DNA of 38,444 bases, taken from positions 1 through 38,444 of the IMG/VR virus record IMGVR_UViG_3300048015_000215, one strand, 5' to 3'. Under the pieces are notes generated by a model. The model saw nothing but the letters and a program-made list of their open reading frames with translations, did not search any database and was not told where the DNA came from. Shown here in pieces: positions 9,809 through 29,549 of the stretch. This DNA comes from a virus. Position 1 is the stretch's first letter; every line of letters begins with the position of its first letter. Both the position numbers and the translations under genes were made by a program.

Positions 9809-11368
9809 ATGCCTCAGTTTCTGTCAGATGGGTATCAACAAGGAAAACCCGCCGTAAACTGGTATACTAAACCAACCGGCGGTATTAATGCACTATTTGC
9901 CCGTGGGGCCGTCAATCAGGCTACTGAAGGAACAGAGTTCACCTACCTTCAAAACCTCGAATCCTATAGAGAAGGCTCCCTCATAGGAATGCTCGGAAAC
10001 GTCCAGCTCAACACGGGCGTAACAGACAACACAGCCATTCTGGGAATAGGGGAATGGGTTTATAGCGGAGGAGACCTCCTCATCTATGGAAAAGCATCCG
10101 GCAACTATTATTCAATGCCCGTAACAGGTGGCCCTGAAACCCTCATTGCTTCCGGCAAATCAACAACAGCCGTTCCCCGGTTCGTCAATTTTCAAGGCTA
10201 CATAATAGTTTTCAATGGAGTAGATGCGCCCTGGCAATATAATGGAACCGCCACCAACTTAACCGGAACCCCTGCCGCCTGGTCAACAAACAAACCTTAC
10301 GACGCTGACGTTTTAGGCGCTCGAATTTTTGCTGTTTCAAAAGACGGGGTTTTTTGGTGTGCCGCAGGAAATCAAAACGATTGGAACACTGCATCCGATG
10401 CAGGATCATTCACCAATCAATTTGCGGACGCTTCATTCCCCCGCGCCATTACTGCGCTTGGTTCAAGCCTCGCCCTATTCAGTGTTGGAAACCGCGTTTA
10501 TTCCATTGACGGAACATCTCCTGCCAACTTTTCAGTTACCCGCTATTCTGGAAACCGTACATTAACAGGAGTTCAAGCCCACGCTATTTTTAACCGATAT
10601 TTATTCTATTTTACTGGAAATACAATCATTCCCATCTATATTAATGATTTTGGAACCAAAATGATTCAAGAAGAGTTAGACCTCGGCTTAAAAATTAAGC
10701 CTATGCTAACCCCAATAGACCCTCATATGGTCATTCCACAAATGGATCAAACTCAACTCTCCTCCGTTATTTTGTTGCCTTATTACAATAAAAATTATCT
10801 GCTTGTCTATTTTAAAGGGACAGCTTCAAGTACTTACAATTATTGCCTCTGCTACTCGCTCGAACAAAAATCCTGGACGGTTCGGGCAATGCAACCAATC
10901 ACAGCTGCCTGTGCCGCTGAAAACAACGTCTATACCGGAACCTCTACCGGTCAAATCCTTAAAGAGTTTACCGGATTTACCCGAGCCGACGGCCAACCAA
11001 TTCAAATGGTGCTTCAAACTCCCTGGTTTGATTGGAACCGCCCTGATCTTTTTAAACAAATAAACACCCTCTATTTAAACTTTATTTATGGTATTTCATC
11101 TAACATTACAATAAACATTTACAAAGACTATTCAGAAACGGCGGCCATTAGCCGTACCATAAACAACCTAAAAACCTATTCTCCTGGAAAATACGGATCC
11201 AGCGCTTATGGTGTTTCATCTTACGGCACTAACATAATAGATTTTTATCTTGGGGAACTCAACATTAATGCCAAAACTTTAAAACTAGAAGTCATCGTAA
11301 ATGATATCGTCTCAGACTTTGAATTATGTGGAATGGGATTTGAAATAGAGCTGAACGATGGCCACTAA
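9809..11368 (+). CDS. Tail nozzle / DNA stabilisation protein (gp10-like)
   Basis: A 519-residue, beta-rich protein that fits the P22 gp10 and T7 gp12 type of tail hub: a beta-propeller-like chain of strands carrying repeated aromatic-Gly turns, such as NFQGYIIVFNG, LGSSLALFSVGNRVYSIDG, and FNRYLFYFTGNT. It would close the portal channel to keep DNA inside and later open to let it pass. The order adaptor-nozzle-ejection proteins agrees. There is no signal peptide or membrane segment. The C-terminus (about 405-519) looks like a separate beta domain. It overlaps the next gene by 11 nt. Confidence 0.75.
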   Translation: MPQFLSDGYQQGKPAVNWYTKPTGGINALFARGAVNQATEGTEFTYLQNLESYREGSLIGMLGNVQLNTGVTDNTAILGIGEWVYSGGDLLIYGKASGNYYSMPVTGGPETLIASGKSTTAVPRFVNFQGYIIVFNGVDAPWQYNGTATNLTGTPAAWSTNKPYDADVLGARIFAVSKDGVFWCAAGNQNDWNTASDAGSFTNQFADASFPRAITALGSSLALFSVGNRVYSIDGTSPANFSVTRYSGNRTLTGVQAHAIFNRYLFYFTGNTIIPIYINDFGTKMIQEELDLGLKIKPMLTPIDPHMVIPQMDQTQLSSVILLPYYNKNYLLVYFKGTASSTYNYCLCYSLEQKSWTVRAMQPITAACAAENNVYTGTSTGQILKEFTGFTRADGQPIQMVLQTPWFDWNRPDLFKQINTLYLNFIYGISSNITINIYKDYSETAAISRTINNLKTYSPGKYGSSAYGVSSYGTNIIDFYLGELNINAKTLKLEVIVNDIVSDFELCGMGFEIELNDGH

Positions 11369-11975
11369 AATAATAAAATACACTCCAAAATATCTGGCCC
11401 CAATATTAGATTGTCTTGAACAATACCACAAAGCCTTTTCAATAGAAGGAACAGCTTCCCCCGGTTCCGAGCTTTGGGCTACAAACTGGCACAAATTTTT
11501 AAGGGACAACTATTCCTTTATCATCATAAATGAGTCAGGTGATTTTCAGGGCTGCATATGGGCTTACGATTTTAGCGGTAATGCCCACTGCAAAATAGGG
11601 GGCTTCGCCATTCGAAAATTTCCCCCGAAACAAACCCGACAAATAATTCAAGACTTTTGTCATCACCTATTTACAACCCTTAATATAAAATTAATCTTAG
11701 CTGAAATTAAAGAGTGGAACCGATCTTCCAAACGTGCTATACTTTTTAAAGGATTTAAGTTATACGCCAAAATCCCCCATTTTTACGGCTATAACGAGCC
11801 TTGTTTACTGTATGGCCTAACAGTAGAGGATTTTAATTCATGGGCGGCGGACCAAAATCACCCAGCTTTCCAAACACGGCTACCTATTTTGATGGCCAAA
11901 ATATGGTGGGAAGTCGTAAAAAGGGCGGAAAATTTATTCAATATTATAATTCCACGCCCGAACAACAAGGCCTAA
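11358..11975 (+). CDS. GNAT-like acetyltransferase
   Basis: A 205-residue protein with the outline of a GNAT N-acetyltransferase: N-terminal beta-alpha (YLAPILDCLEQYHKAF), a central strand pair (YSFIIINESGDFQGCIWAYDF), then a segment around 85-105 where the acetyl-CoA loop would be (FPPKQTRQIIQDFCHHLF), and a closing LILAEIKEWNRSSKRAILFKGFKLYAKIPHFYG strand-helix-strand (read in two parts, about 112-146). The usual Q/RxxGxG/A loop is degenerate here, so activity is uncertain. Such genes occur between tail and ejection genes in some podoviruses and may modify a virion protein. The last 136 nt overlap the next gene out of frame. Confidence 0.55.
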   Translation: MATKIIKYTPKYLAPILDCLEQYHKAFSIEGTASPGSELWATNWHKFLRDNYSFIIINESGDFQGCIWAYDFSGNAHCKIGGFAIRKFPPKQTRQIIQDFCHHLFTTLNIKLILAEIKEWNRSSKRAILFKGFKLYAKIPHFYGYNEPCLLYGLTVEDFNSWAADQNHPAFQTRLPILMAKIWWEVVKRAENLFNIIIPRPNNKA

Positions 11976-23918: not shown

Positions 23919-24494
23919 TTATTCCTTTATCTTTACATTACTAATTAAATAAGTTTTTGGTAGCATACATCGGGGATTCCAATCAGTGTAATTAAAGTTA
24001 TAGTGCCCCTCATATACATTATTATTGCCCGTAACCCTATGAAATTCAAGCTGTCCAACCGGTTGCCCGACATATAATTTAGCTGGAAAATTAGTTGTCA
24101 CTTCCAACGTCCACCGGCTAGCAAACCCGGGATCTCCCCAACCCGCTGACTGATGTACACTAATAAAATTTCTGGCTAAAGTCGACCTCGTATGAAGCGA
24201 ACAATTTAAATGTGGCACCAAAGACCCCACAAACTCCTCAGAATGCATCAAATACCCAAGTCCCGGCTCAATATTTATTACTTCATTTTTAGCCTCGCAA
24301 AGCGTATAATAAATATTTTCCCCAGGAGAAACAACCCAATAATAACGCCCCAACCGAATATCTAATGAGTTGCCCTGGCACAGCCGATTAAAAACGTCTT
24401 CAAGCACTGGCTTCCCGGTTCCGTCCAAATATCTAATCTCACCCCTTTTAATAGCTTCTCTAATTGCTTCTTTGCCCAAACTACAACTACTCAT
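23919..24494 (-). CDS. dcd: dCTP deaminase (DCD/dUTPase family)
   Basis: A 191-residue enzyme that converts dCTP to dUTP, the first step of making dUMP, substrate of ThyX. Diagnostic motifs: GNSLDIRLG (41-49), HTRSTLAR (101-108), ISVHQSAGWGDPGFASRWTLEV (about 111-132; the Arg of RSTLAR and the Glu of WTLEV match the catalytic residues of the family) and GQPVGQLEF (143-151). A bifunctional dCTP deaminase/dUTPase cannot be excluded. It overlaps the adenosyltransferase gene by ATGA, so it is part of the same translationally coupled operon as the ribonucleotide reductase. Confidence 0.9.
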   Translation of the reverse strand: MSSCSLGKEAIREAIKRGEIRYLDGTGKPVLEDVFNRLCQGNSLDIRLGRYYWVVSPGENIYYTLCEAKNEVINIEPGLGYLMHSEEFVGSLVPHLNCSLHTRSTLARNFISVHQSAGWGDPGFASRWTLEVTTNFPAKLYVGQPVGQLEFHRVTGNNNVYEGHYNFNYTDWNPRCMLPKTYLISNVKIKE

Positions 24495-25066
24495 AAATTA
24501 ATACTCCAATTAATTTTACAACTAAGATCATACCGCTCTAATTTTTTAATGGTTTTAAGTTCTACCAGCCGAGCAAGCTCAAAAAATAGGGTGGATAATC
24601 TGTTAAAAAATCTATTTAATTCTATGCAATGGGGAATCTCGGTTTGATTCCAATAAGCCCTTTCTAACTGTCTAGCTTTAACTCTAAGTAAATTTAAATG
24701 GGCCGCACCAGGATGATTAAATTTATAAAATGATGTCGTCGGCCCAGATAATTCTGTTACCCTATCAATTAATTTTTCAAACTCTTCATTATAAACGCGA
24801 TTTATTAGTTCTAAGCATTTGTTATTGTCGCACTTATCGGCTAACCAAGGAAAAGAAGCCAACAAATACAACGAATTCTGCACATTAATTAATATAGAAT
24901 TAATATATTCTCTATACTCTAGAATATTAATAATCGAACCTTCTTTTCTTATTAAGACCATTAATTCGTCCAAATAATTCAAATATTCAAAATAAGAATT
25001 ATCTTTTTTTAGTCTTTTAGTTAAATTAAAATAAGTTAACCCTCGATCCCCATAGTGAGTTCTCAT
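24491..25066 (-). CDS. Cob(I)alamin adenosyltransferase, PduO type
   Basis: A 191-residue protein that aligns by eye over its whole length with PduO/MMAB adenosyltransferases, which transfer the adenosyl group of ATP to cob(I)alamin. Matches: THYGDRGLT (3-11) to the ATP-binding TxTGDxGxT; KKDNSYFEYLNYLDEL (20-35) to the KDDxxxExxGxxDEL segment; ASFPWL to the end of the first long helix; HPGAAHLNLLRVKARQLERAYW (about 117-138, in part) to the PGG..AxLHxxRxxxRRAER helix, keeping R..ER; and NRFFNRLSTLFFELARL (about 149-165) to LNRLSDxLFxLAR. The Asp of LNRLSD is Thr here and PGG is HPG. It lies in a coupled operon with a B12-dependent reductase, which gives it a clear role: making adenosylcobalamin. 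Confidence 0.85.
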   Translation of the reverse strand: MRTHYGDRGLTYFNLTKRLKKDNSYFEYLNYLDELMVLIRKEGSIINILEYREYINSILINVQNSLYLLASFPWLADKCDNNKCLELINRVYNEEFEKLIDRVTELSGPTTSFYKFNHPGAAHLNLLRVKARQLERAYWNQTEIPHCIELNRFFNRLSTLFFELARLVELKTIKKLERYDLSCKINWSINL

Positions 25067-25263
25067 GACAGTACCTCCTTAACTAAATGTTTAGGAATTT
25101 TAATCTCCAATGAAATTGTTGTATGCTCTTTAAAAGTGCCCACTGAATGAACGCTGGACGTTATTCCATACACCTCATATTTATGCAGTGTTCCTAAAAC
25201 GTCCCACATAAATTTTTTTGCTTCTGTTTTCTCAAACAAATAATTTAATATGTGTTTAATCAT
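25063..25263 (-). CDS. 66-residue protein between reductase and adenosyltransferase
   Basis: Starts at ATG 25263 overlapping the reductase stop (ATGA), and ends overlapping the adenosyltransferase start (ATGA). GGGAG lies before the ATG. The product has an N-terminal helix (HILNYLFEKTEAKKFMWDVL) and a beta-like second half with TISLEIKIPKHLVKEV. There is one Cys-free, soluble domain by eye. I do not recognise it. Being locked between the B12-dependent reductase and the cofactor enzyme, it could bridge them or control the reductase. Confidence 0.7.
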   Translation of the reverse strand: MIKHILNYLFEKTEAKKFMWDVLGTLHKYEVYGITSSVHSVGTFKEHTTISLEIKIPKHLVKEVLS

Positions 25264-28067
25264 TTTATGGGACAACTCCCGCCACTGCATTCATCTTCTA
25301 AGGTAATGACATCACCAGTAAACAATTTAAAAATATCCTGTGGAATAACCTTCAAAGGCTTAATCAATTCCTCATATTTTTCTTTGGTTATAGGAATGTA
25401 GGGCAAATCCGGATATTTATCTGCAATCGTATCATCATTTTCATCCAATTCAAATAAAGGCAAAAAAGAAGTAGATTTTAAAATATTCGAATACCTATAA
25501 AGTAATGTTTCTAATTGCTTTGTTTCTGATTTTTTAAAATTTATGGTAGCGCTTACTTGATTATCTGCCCAATATTGTTGAACAAAAAGTTGAAAGTCTA
25601 GTTGTTCTTTTAAAGTTTGTGTTTGAGCGCTCTTGAACCGGCGATTCTTTGCAAACTCACTTTTAATCGGAAATTCAAATAAATAGGCATTAGGAGTTTG
25701 AACCGCAGGACGCCCGCTATACCCCGCAGCAGTTAAAAGCTTAACCAGGGGGCTTGTCGCGTCCATTTGAATCCTTCTAAGATAATACGCCGAATATGGG
25801 GCGTGGATGCCGGGAGAAACCCCCGCCAAAAGGCTAATTGTTCCTGATGGCTTAACAGTTGTTAGCTTAATAGACCTATTAACGTTAAGATAGGCTGAAA
25901 AAACCTTATCTACCTCCCTAATACGCTCATATAATACGCTCAATATATTACTTAATGAATTTTCGGTTAAATTCTTTTTGCAGATCCAGTCAACCCAACC
26001 GGAAATAGAAACCCCTATCCTCCGGTTCTTGCGAACAACCTTCGCGGTTACTGGATCCTCATAATTCGCCAATGTAACCCGTTTAGCATATTTGTAAGCC
26101 AACGTCACAACATCCAGATAACCAACGTTTTGCGGTATCTTCGAGGGAAACACCTCCACCAAATTGCACGGCTCTCCATCTTCCAAGGTTATCTCCCCAC
26201 AATTTGCAGAAATAACTCCAGACAAATAACTTTTTCCTACCGAAATATCATCAACAATAATATAATTATGAAATTCTTCAACCATCCCATTATAAACGTC
26301 TTCTGTTCCGCAAGGAATAACGGATACAACTTTATGGTTTTCTAATATTTTTTTAGCGATGCCTCCAGGAGTTTTATAGAAAAACCCATTTAAAACCTGG
26401 GCTGCATAATGCTCTTTATTATGTTCACTCTGTGTTAGTAATCCCAAATTTTCAATTCTATTGTCAGTGGGATCTCCATTAAGATGATGAACAATTTTAT
26501 TGTCAATATTTAATCCAAAATAATCGGCCACAATTCTATGTAAAAAATATTGTTGAACATAATCCCCGTCTTTAACATTTCTAACAACTCTAAGATGACC
26601 GTCCCTATGACGATGAATAGAAAAAGCTGATACAGATTGTCCTATTTTTAAGTTTTTAGCTTTTATCTTATTTCTTTGTAAAGTAAAGAAATTATGGTCT
26701 TCCGTGCATTTAACTTTTAGCCCGCTGTCAAAAGTTACTTCTAAGACAGAAACATTCGATCTTGTTTTGTGCGGACGTTTCATTATAGATAGTTTAGGTT
26801 GATTGGTTTTTAAATCAATACACCACACTAAAACGTCTTTTTCGGTCTTTGCCAATTCTTCAAAAGTTTTAACCCCATTATAAGTTAATATTTTTGTGCC
26901 TCCCGCAACACAAGGATTAGTTCCGACGGCTGCCGGGTCTGCTGCCGGATTAAATCCATCTATCAAACGACCCGAATTCCTACAGTTATACAGATTGACT
27001 ATCCCTGGCTCCCCATTATTTATAATGGCATTCGCTAAGTCCGGCCAAAAAATACAACTATCTTCTTCAATAACAATAGAATTATTTGACGCCCAGCGAT
27101 GATGCATCAAATATTCATATTTTTGCTTTTCTTCCTCGGTTACAGGGTTGAAATTAACATTTTTAGCGTCCAAAAAGTCAATATCATTAGGATCGCCCAG
27201 AGCAATAAGGGCTGATCGACGAACATTCCCGCTAACAACGCAACGACCGATGCAAGTAACGATATCCAAAACCTCGACACTGGTCAATTTCCTTCCTTGT
27301 GCGCCATTAAAAATTTTTGTAACCCACTCCAACAATTCTTTCAATGGTTCCGGTCCAGGTGCAACGCCTCCAAAAGTTTTCAAGGGAGTTCCTTTTGGCC
27401 GAATATTTGACAGATCAACCCAAATCGGCAACAAACCACCTTTATAAGAAAAATGAGACGTAATAATATGATGAACTACTTGAACCCAGCCTTCTCTTGA
27501 ATCCTCCACCACAAAGTGCTTAAAATCATTCCCACACTTTTTTGCCTTTTCCCCATCAAAACAAAGCTCAATTTGTGATCGAACCGAGGGAAGCCTATCA
27601 ATATATTTTTTTTGAATGCCAAACCCCACGCCAGACCCCAGCATAAGCTGATTCATAATAAACTTAAAGGCGTATGCAGGATCATTATAATATGGTTTCA
27701 TACTAATATAAAAGCAATTCGTTAGGCCTGCTCCATGACGCTCGCTCGCCTCGGTACCAGATAACCACAAACCGCGTCCGGCAGGCAAAAAATACATATT
27801 AAATATATAATGATACATTTGCATCGCTTCATATTTCATTGCAGCAACCCTAGAATTTGTAACCGATCCCTTAGTCGCCAATTTATGCTTATACTCAAGT
27901 TGATAATTTCCTTCGACCACCCGCGCCACGGTCTGCCACCACTCCTCGGTTCCGCCGTCAGGCAAAGGCCGCGCGTAAGTTCTTTTATACGTCACGTAAC
28001 CCAAAGGTCCCCACGGAGGCGCCAAATCTTTATATTGGCTGACAAACTGATCATCCAGAAACTTCAT
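25260..28067 (-). CDS. nrdJ: Class II (B12-dependent) ribonucleoside-triphosphate reductase with intein
   Basis: A 935-residue precursor; without its intein (386-622) the enzyme is 698 residues, close to the monomeric adenosylcobalamin-dependent reductase of Lactobacillus leichmannii. It reduces NTPs to dNTPs for phage DNA. The N-terminus (PPWGPLGYVTYKRTYARPLP, 17-36) matches that family well. Key cysteines are present: C118 (TNCFYIS) and C634 form the redox pair, C623 (386 after splicing) is the thiyl radical Cys of NPCGE, and C927/C932 (CSGGSC) are the C-terminal shuttle. Asn384 and Glu625 complete the active site. It overlaps the ERCC4 gene before it and the small gene behind it. Confidence 0.93.
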   Translation of the reverse strand: MKFLDDQFVSQYKDLAPPWGPLGYVTYKRTYARPLPDGGTEEWWQTVARVVEGNYQLEYKHKLATKGSVTNSRVAAMKYEAMQMYHYIFNMYFLPAGRGLWLSGTEASERHGAGLTNCFYISMKPYYNDPAYAFKFIMNQLMLGSGVGFGIQKKYIDRLPSVRSQIELCFDGEKAKKCGNDFKHFVVEDSREGWVQVVHHIITSHFSYKGGLLPIWVDLSNIRPKGTPLKTFGGVAPGPEPLKELLEWVTKIFNGAQGRKLTSVEVLDIVTCIGRCVVSGNVRRSALIALGDPNDIDFLDAKNVNFNPVTEEEKQKYEYLMHHRWASNNSIVIEEDSCIFWPDLANAIINNGEPGIVNLYNCRNSGRLIDGFNPAADPAAVGTNPCVAGGTKILTYNGVKTFEELAKTEKDVLVWCIDLKTNQPKLSIMKRPHKTRSNVSVLEVTFDSGLKVKCTEDHNFFTLQRNKIKAKNLKIGQSVSAFSIHRHRDGHLRVVRNVKDGDYVQQYFLHRIVADYFGLNIDNKIVHHLNGDPTDNRIENLGLLTQSEHNKEHYAAQVLNGFFYKTPGGIAKKILENHKVVSVIPCGTEDVYNGMVEEFHNYIIVDDISVGKSYLSGVISANCGEITLEDGEPCNLVEVFPSKIPQNVGYLDVVTLAYKYAKRVTLANYEDPVTAKVVRKNRRIGVSISGWVDWICKKNLTENSLSNILSVLYERIREVDKVFSAYLNVNRSIKLTTVKPSGTISLLAGVSPGIHAPYSAYYLRRIQMDATSPLVKLLTAAGYSGRPAVQTPNAYLFEFPIKSEFAKNRRFKSAQTQTLKEQLDFQLFVQQYWADNQVSATINFKKSETKQLETLLYRYSNILKSTSFLPLFELDENDDTIADKYPDLPYIPITKEKYEELIKPLKVIPQDIFKLFTGDVITLEDECSGGSCPIK
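26202..26912 (-). mobile_element. Intein with HNH homing endonuclease domain in nrdJ
   Basis: In-frame insertion of 237 residues (386-622 of the reductase). It begins with Cys (CVAGGTKILTYNG, block A), has block B with TEDH, block F-like VYNGMVEEFHNYII, and ends in Ala-Asn before the extein Cys. The usual His before the last Asn is Ala. An HNH-type nuclease lies inside (HHLNGDPTDNRIENL, then HNKEH). The exteins join at NP|CGE, the catalytic Cys itself, so the reductase is dead until splicing. The nuclease would home into intein-free alleles at this site. Confidence 0.9.
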
Positions 28068-28494
28068 TCAACGTACCTTTCTTCTTATACTCAATAAATT
28101 TAGTTAGTAAATACTGGGTCGTTTGCTGACCCTCGAACCGGGAACCGACAAATAGAACATAAATGCCATAATGCAACGACAAGCCCAACAAAAAATGTTT
28201 AAGCGCTTTATTTGCCCGCAATTCAAACCCAGCTAAATCAGTTTCAATAACCAAATACGGAAACTTTATTTGTTGCAGTCGTAGCAACTCTGCTTTGAAC
28301 CGGGAGGAGTGCCAACAAGATTCAATGTCTGAAAAGCTTTTTCTCTCTACAGTAATTTCATTTTCGAACCCTTCTAACGAATAATCTCCGGTTTTGAGGG
28401 CTGCTTTTTTAAGTTCCACTCCAGTAAACCTGTAGGGCAATTTTTCTCTCGTATCAATCAAAAAAACGGGGGCGAGTTTTTGTTTTTTAGGCAT
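28051..28494 (-). CDS. ERCC4-type nuclease
   Basis: A 147-residue protein with the XPF/ERCC4 nuclease core: DTREKLPY (14-21), GDY at 36-38 (KTGDYSL) and the hallmark ERKxxxD (E50-R51-K52 to D56, VERKSFSD). It would cut branched or flap DNA. There is no helix-hairpin-helix domain, so this is a nuclease-only version, as in several phages. It probably processes replication or recombination intermediates. Its end overlaps the start of the reductase gene by 17 nt. Confidence 0.88.
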   Translation of the reverse strand: MPKKQKLAPVFLIDTREKLPYRFTGVELKKAALKTGDYSLEGFENEITVERKSFSDIESCWHSSRFKAELLRLQQIKFPYLVIETDLAGFELRANKALKHFLLGLSLHYGIYVLFVGSRFEGQQTTQYLLTKFIEYKKKGTLNEVSG

Positions 28495-28815: not shown

Positions 28816-28843
28816 ACTATAGCAAGTTTTTAATTGATGTCAA
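28816..28843 (-). promoter_or_regulatory. Strong internal promoter for the reductase operon
   Basis: On the minus strand TTGACA (28843-28838) and TATAGT (28821-28816) lie 16 bp apart: a full -35 and a 5/6 -10. The -35 overlaps the last codons of thyX. It would drive the small basic gene, ERCC4 nuclease, reductase, adenosyltransferase and deaminase separately from the replication genes upstream. Confidence 0.75.
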
Positions 28844-29549
28844 CACTTTTTATAAGATGTTTTGCAGAAATTGGAAAATATTGTAGTAACAAATTGTAAA
28901 TTTCTATTGCCACTTCCTGAGACTCTTTTTGCGCATGGTTATCCAATCGCTGATTACAAATCCTCGCAAATGCCAATAATGACCCAGTCCAATACCATTC
29001 AGTAAACATGCTTTGCGGTAAAATCATCCGTGCCAGCTCTGGTGCGATGCCTTCTTTAAGCATTAAATCATATAACTCAGTTGCCTCTTGGTAATGGTCA
29101 TCAACCCTTTGTTTAATATTTCCCCCCAAACCCGGCCAACCAGATTTAAACAAACTAATCGTCTCGCTGGACGACCCTTGCTTAATTCCTCCTTCCGGCC
29201 TGAGCCGCCAGTCATTCCTACTATAAAATTCGGGGGGCTCATCAACATACCTTCGAGAGACCTCATTCCAGGCCATGTAGCCCGCGTCGCCTCCAGAAAC
29301 ACCTACATGAGATTTCCAGAGTTGGCGGGCCACAAATAGGGGCGCCTTAACGATTACCGTCATTTGACAGTGTGTAAAAGGGCTCCAATGATCGTGCCTC
29401 GCTAAATAAGCAATTAACTTTTCATCTTTTTCATTAAAGGTATCTTCAGCTATCTCTTTATGAAAAGAAACACGAGCGGCGTTAACCACACGCCCATCAG
29501 AGCCCATATGATCCTTATATGTAACAGAAGATTTATTATGCGTAATCAT
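28830..29549 (-). CDS. thyX: Flavin-dependent thymidylate synthase
   Basis: A 239-residue enzyme that makes dTMP from dUMP with folate and FAD. Motifs: HWSPFTHCQ (54-62), VARQLWKSHVG (73-83) and NEVSRRYVDEPPEFY (95-109), the ThyX core, then a C-terminal helical part with NQRLDNHAQKESQEVA. The residue between HVG and NEVSRRY is normally only a few; here it is about 11 (VSGGDAGYMAW), an insertion in the substrate-binding loop. The ATG follows directly on the stop of the DUF3310 gene. With dCTP deaminase this forms a complete route from dCTP to dTMP. Confidence 0.93.
   Translation of the reverse strand: MITHNKSSVTYKDHMGSDGRVVNAARVSFHKEIAEDTFNEKDEKLIAYLARHDHWSPFTHCQMTVIVKAPLFVARQLWKSHVGVSGGDAGYMAWNEVSRRYVDEPPEFYSRNDWRLRPEGGIKQGSSSETISLFKSGWPGLGGNIKQRVDDHYQEATELYDLMLKEGIAPELARMILPQSMFTEWYWTGSLLAFARICNQRLDNHAQKESQEVAIEIYNLLLQYFPISAKHLIKSVDIN

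Follow-up and report, generated by a model that had tools for sequence, protein, structure and literature searches.

The literature leaves open how aquatic phages with class II ribonucleotide reductases obtain their coenzyme B12 (PMC10547690), and the question is raised in concrete form by a phage locus in which a reductase gene of this class lies one short gene away from a putative gene for the enzyme that makes its cofactor. The locus belongs to IMG/VR record IMGVR_UViG_3300048015_000215, the whole of which (38,444 bases) was taken as the window. Its reductase gene, nrdJ, encodes an adenosylcobalamin-dependent ribonucleoside-triphosphate reductase (RTPR), and its neighbor a divergent PduO-type ATP:cob(I)alamin adenosyltransferase (ACA). 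The phage probably makes its own dNTPs with the RTPR and the cofactor of the RTPR with its own ACA. Each part of this mechanism has support in the sequence and the predicted structure, with the genes, their coupling, the predicted fold, and the kept residues as evidence; from these, we infer catalysis by the ACA, a reductant from the host, delivery of the cofactor to the RTPR, and the ability to do without the host ACA.

The record that makes up the window comes from a real phage of podovirus-like type. Its plus strand carries the terminase, portal/head–tail adaptor, major head protein, and internal virion protein, in agreement with the phage origin given in the initial annotation. A GNAT-like acetyltransferase (11358–11975), with a weak match below the cut-off, is located amid the virion structural genes. 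The minus strand holds a replication and nucleotide gene run composed of an exonuclease, a Sak4-like annealing protein, a primase, a family A DNA polymerase, and ThyX, followed by an ERCC4 nuclease, nrdJ, a gene of 66 codons, the ACA gene, and dcd (Table 1). The last 17 nt of the ERCC4-type nuclease gene are shared with the beginning of nrdJ (28067). As a member of the same run as nrdJ, thyX would round out a dNTP-supply set.

Table 1. Features of the nrdJ–ACA region of the window and protein X loci of other phage records.
Feature	Position	Strand	Basis or remark
dcd, dCTP deaminase family protein, 191 aa	23919..24494	-	ATGA-coupled to ACA
Divergent PduO-type ATP:cob(I)alamin adenosyltransferase (ACA), 191 aa	24491..25066	-	PF01923, model, residues
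66-aa gene	25063..25263	-	ATGA-coupled to nrdJ and to ACA
AAGGAGG Shine-Dalgarno (perfect)	25074..25080	-	7 nt ahead of ACA start codon
nrdJ, AdoCbl-dependent ribonucleoside-triphosphate reductase (RTPR, monomeric class II)	25260..28067	-	TIGR02505, 1L1L
Intein with HNH endonuclease, aa 386–622 of nrdJ	26202..26912	-	PF14890, PF13392, TIGR01445
ERCC4-type nuclease gene	28051..28494	-	PF02732 37.5 bits; upstream part of same gene run
thyX, flavin-dependent thymidylate synthase	28830..29549	-	PF02511 140 bits
Protein X loci	L056 9427–9879; L063 6923–7378; L033 9349–9810; some 70 more		Adjoining phage ACA

The minus-strand order nrdJ, unknown gene, ACA, dcd, proposed earlier from the letters alone, was confirmed by the open reading frames and by three ATGA overlaps read directly at 25260–25263, 25063–25066, and 24491–24494, which join the four genes one to the next. 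The span given for this operon (24491–28067) covers nrdJ, the 66-aa gene, and the ACA gene but leaves out dcd (23919–24494). The length of the 66-aa protein is counted from the coupled ATG, while the earliest in-frame ATG would give 75 aa; the protein has no match in Pfam, PHROG, or phage records. The dCTP deaminase assignment of dcd held, with 72 bits to PF22769 (cut-off 27) and 83 bits to the dCTP deaminase family phrog_1663; its product is under the TIGR02274 equivalog cut-off (61 vs. 92.8), and its conserved motifs are kept as judged by eye only. Taken together, the profile and structure matches of the ACA, nrdJ, and dcd products greatly exceed what chance would give.

The nrdJ product comprises 935 aa unspliced and 698 aa spliced. 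It passes the RTPR equivalog TIGR02505 (468.7 bits vs. a cut-off of 340) and aligns to the Lactobacillus leichmannii RTPR (PDB 1L1L) with an E-value of 3.3e-131, in agreement with the class II identity proposed earlier. Its cysteines align to C119, C408, C419, C731, and C736 of 1L1L, the functional (catalytic, radical, and C-terminal) cysteines of L. leichmannii-type RTPRs, and Glu410 is kept. By these residues, nrdJ is an intact L. leichmannii-type RTPR apart from its interruption by an intein. This element, with an HNH endonuclease, was absent from the initial annotation. It sits directly before the radical cysteine (C408 in L. leichmannii RTPR, C623 in the nrdJ precursor), so that the 1L1L alignment stops exactly at NP/C and picks up again at C623, and its GC content is 0.32 against 0.41 for the nrdJ exteins. 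Because of this position, active RTPR would need protein splicing, as expected from intein biology. Another phage RTPR ORF, of 2056 aa (L009 3694–9864), apparently has several inteins at different conserved sites.

The PduO-type identity of the 24491–25066 product, proposed in the initial annotation, was upheld by profile search, structure prediction, and residue comparison. The ACA matches PF01923 with 64.4 bits (cut-off 24) and an E-value of 1.8e-17, over residues 3–167 of the protein and positions 3–170 of the 171 in the profile. It stays below the equivalog cut-off of TIGR00636 (PduO_Nterm; 52.8 vs. 108.45 bits) and was therefore classed as a divergent PF01923 member outside the equivalog. 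An AlphaFold2 model, built from an alignment of 19 viral relatives that included other PF01923 members, has a mean pLDDT of 81. The PDB matches listed first for it were 2idx, 7rut, 6d5x, and 2nt8 (TM 0.66–0.69 on the query), and the best of the listed matches are either adenosyltransferases of the PduO-type/MMAB kind or designed scaffolds derived from these, with E-values from 1.4e-4 and a probability of 1.00. The ACA is thus predicted by the model to have the PduO five-helix-bundle fold and is presumably a trimer. The ligand residues G63, S68, K78, F170, R186, R190, E193, R194, N214, and S217 of human ATR, the roles of which have been described (PMC8633584, PMC9262797), correspond to G6, T11, K21, F113, R128, R132, E135, R136, N155, and S158 of the ACA, the human numbering having been transferred by hand from alignments. 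All 10 of the ATP/cobalamin contact positions compared are kept, one of them conservatively (Ser68 to Thr). The ACA is changed at the loop around the MMAB PSGG, and the position of Arg191 is occupied by Gln (Q133). The proposal that the reductase needs adenosylcobalamin and that its neighbor could make it is supported by the kept ligand residues.

The ACA is only about 24–37% identical to any relative found, and deviates in composition; in a tree of 40 sequences its branch is longer than any other, too long for the ACA to be placed. The closest cellular relatives found belong to Bacteroidota (up to 37% identity), and the host was left unassigned because the sampling was biased to this phylum. 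Viral contigs yielded no close relative, whether the query was only the protein of the window or Bacteroidales-like relatives of it, and no close homologue usable for a purifying-selection test was found. The GC content of the ACA gene (0.297) is the lowest among 21 genes compared and that of the 66-aa gene is 0.318, against 0.41 for the nrdJ exteins and dcd and 0.414 for the window. The two genes (24491–25263) form a low-GC island of 0.30–0.32, which suggests that they were inserted later as a unit between nrdJ and dcd. A tblastn search of phage records with the ACA gave five matches, and 15 with a better query, and none of them was counted as a phage gene, partly by inspection: in two opened records, the ACA is flanked by what appear to be genes of a bacterial chromosome, and the remaining matches lie in fragments that lack annotation or in a 254-kb “Acinetobacter phage” record. 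Records of this kind, which are labeled as phage and seemingly hold bacterial chromosomal genes around the adenosyltransferase (MT836462, MT839161, several “Listeria phage” fragments, and “Acinetobacter phage MD-2021a”), are a trap for automatic gene surveys.

The recurrence of the pair was examined in IMG/VR, where 288 stretches proved to encode relatives of the PduO-like viral-record proteins used as queries. Among 50 ACA records examined whole, 25 also have an RTPR, on the same strand in 25/25, and in 15 of these 25 the ACA is located 515–655 bp downstream of the RTPR on that strand. Since the ACA contigs are redundant, they were grouped into 38 clusters at 90% identity and 11 at 70%, of which 16 and 6, respectively, have an RTPR within 1 kb upstream of the ACA. 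A terminase (PHROG 2) was detected in five of the 25 records with both genes, four of them with the close arrangement (G039, G044, G047, and G048), which indicates that at least those are phages. PF01923 was absent from all 31 phage records fetched by RTPR similarity and PF02572 from all 26 checked among them; thus, RTPR phages for the most part seem to use the adenosyltransferase of the host. The CobA/BtuR family, considered as a substitute in other RTPR phages, was found in 0 of 27 records, the window included. A 430-kb phage record (G031) encodes a PduO-type adenosyltransferase (L036 9986–10513) and has no class II RNR match, suggesting that phage adenosyltransferases may serve other clients. 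Small thioredoxin- or glutaredoxin-like genes were seen by eye near phage RTPR/ACA genes (L041 560–811 and L071 11198–11425) and are possible electron donors for the reductase. The initial annotation knew of no described reductase–adenosyltransferase pair in a phage operon. This stands for the open-access literature, to which the search was confined, and no clear case was found in cultured phages; the rarity it implied does not stand, as IMG/VR has many phage PduO genes, and the pair recurs there and is not singular. RTPR–ACA pairing is apparently a recurrent and undescribed phage strategy, and its recurrence in other uncultured phages makes it look like a real, little-noticed route to a phage’s own cofactor. 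The window phage is an independent, lineage-specific, and more tightly coupled version of the pair, without the protein described next.

In other phages, the usual gene between RTPR and ACA encodes a protein of approximately 150 aa with an N-terminal hydrophobic helix, called here protein X. It stands beside the ACA in 67 of 80 loci found through the ACA and in 73 of 74 found through X, the remaining locus ending 268 bases past X. Protein X has no match near the cut-off in Pfam or NCBIfam, the transcobalamin and DUF4430 families included, and a PDB profile search returned no transcobalamin; the attempt to find a transcobalamin likeness by sequence thus failed, and its predicted fold is the sole support for it. 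The model (pLDDT 85.6) matches many transcobalamin chains, beta domain included, together with Ruminococcus gnavus 3u7z, with a probability of 0.95–1.00 and a TM of up to 0.68 on the target, yet with E-values of only 0.015–0.1. On the basis of this model, protein X is likely a secreted corrinoid-binding protein with a predicted transcobalamin-beta-/DUF4430-like fold and possibly a B12-capturing protein of the phage. The 66-aa protein of the window was considered as a counterpart and rejected, as the window gave no match to the X profile and the 66-aa protein has no recognizable relative.

In the proposed mechanism, active RTPR would arise when the intein splices itself out of the nrdJ precursor. 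The ACA would bind ATP and host cob(II)alamin, made base-off by F113; a host reductant would give one electron, and the ACA would then transfer the adenosyl group to cobalt to form adenosylcobalamin. The corrinoid converted in this way would be taken up or made by the host. With adenosylcobalamin, the RTPR would reduce NTPs directly to dNTPs, Dcd and ThyX would divert some of the dCTP toward dTTP, and translational coupling would match cofactor supply to reductase synthesis. The earlier suggestion that dNTP supply would depend only on host B12 uptake is too strong, as the step from cob(II)alamin to cob(I)alamin still needs a reduction, and uptake or synthesis of the corrinoid is left to the host; no cobalamin reductase or uptake gene was recognized in the window.

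That the phage provides its own cofactor is argued by the PF01923 match, the first place of PduO/MMAB structures among the matches of the model, the 10/10 ligand positions, and the intact RTPR cysteines, together with the ATGA overlaps, the perfect Shine-Dalgarno, dcd and thyX in the run, the phage structural genes, and the recurrent RTPR–ACA order. Against it stand the extreme divergence of the ACA, its TIGR00636 score, the altered PSGG loop and Arg191, and the RTPR-similar phages that lack an ACA. This divergence and the tight coupling of the ACA to its client would also suit a PduO-like protein that is mainly an escort, delivering bound, host-made adenosylcobalamin to the phage reductase while catalyzing slowly or not at all or, in a variant of the same idea, repairing or recycling inactivated cofactor. 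Human ATR acts as a chaperone as well as an enzyme, two functions that mutation can separate (PMC8633584). However, residues for catalysis and not only for binding are kept in the ACA, namely, K21, E135, N155, and R132, which equals human R190, a residue whose change lowers kcat 16–115 fold (PMC8633584). The escort role is the main alternative, improbable as an account of the locus by itself, and it may coexist with catalysis.

The longest branch in the tree, the lowest GC content of 21 genes, a later insertion probably shared with the 66-aa gene, and the 430-kb phage record that has an ACA and no class II RNR match would all fit an adenosyltransferase captured from a cellular source and now decaying or serving a role apart from the RTPR, its place after nrdJ being incidental. 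We consider this slightly less probable again than an escort, as the gene is a full-length ORF with a perfect Shine-Dalgarno, two ATGA overlaps, and all compared ligand residues, and the same neighborhood surrounds ACAs of another clade at other phage loci. An annotation artefact, with the PF01923 similarity reflecting a generic helical bundle only, could be suspected from a moderate score that is under the equivalog cut-off; it is highly improbable and refuted in the main, since nearly the whole 171-position profile is matched, every one of the scattered ligand residues lines up, and PduO/MMAB comes first in the structure search.

With provision of its own cofactor by the phage as the preferred reading, a wider proposal can be made, in which we place slightly less than even confidence: RTPR phages may carry dedicated coenzyme-B12 modules, with an ACA joined to or beside the RTPR and often a secreted transcobalamin-like corrinoid catcher, so that, where a host lacks the cofactor or has it in limiting supply, infection would produce it from vitamin B12, and the window would be an independently assembled version of such a module. 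The coupled RTPR–ACA genes and the recurring RTPR–X–ACA cassette turn the B12 question into defined, assayable genes. If the proposal is true, B12 activation, and perhaps B12 capture, would be added to what a phage brings to its host cell.

Several known systems can be compared with the locus. Class II RTPRs are common in aquatic phages; according to Wu et al. (2023, PMC10547690), the B12 has to be synthesized or assimilated by the hosts, and its uptake may be regulated or enhanced by phages in the course of infection. A phage adenosyltransferase is not mentioned there, the text having been searched for “adenosyl”. The nrdJ product resembles these phage RTPRs and 1L1L in its catalytic, radical, and C-terminal cysteines and insertion domain and differs from them in the HNH intein at the radical cysteine and in the adenosyltransferase of its own that comes after it. 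Viral contigs are known to carry cobalamin genes, as cobA, cobS, and cobT are listed as viral auxiliary metabolic genes (PMC11183165), including an adenosyltransferase (cobA); unlike the window ACA, CobA belongs to another fold family, and the passage listing these genes describes no link to a class II reductase. The ACA is similar to LrPduO and human MMAB/ATR (PF01923) in its predicted fold, nearly full-length profile match, GD.G.T ATP-loop, K21, F113, R128...R132..ER, and NRLS; in contrast to them, it is about 24–33% identical to the aligned PduO/MMAB and bacterial copies, has an altered PSGG loop and R191, is phage-encoded, and is coupled to a reductase gene. The nearest arrangement is the RTPR–X–ACA cassette of other phages (L056 7388–10564, L063, L067, and L070), which shares with the window an RTPR, one short gene, and a PduO ACA on the same strand. 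WhiB-like genes seen by eye at some cassette loci suggest actinobacterial hosts. The two ACA types measured score approximately 180–206 bits against PF01923, and the cassette ACAs form another clade; where these cassettes have the secreted protein X of approximately 150 aa, the window has its 66-aa gene.
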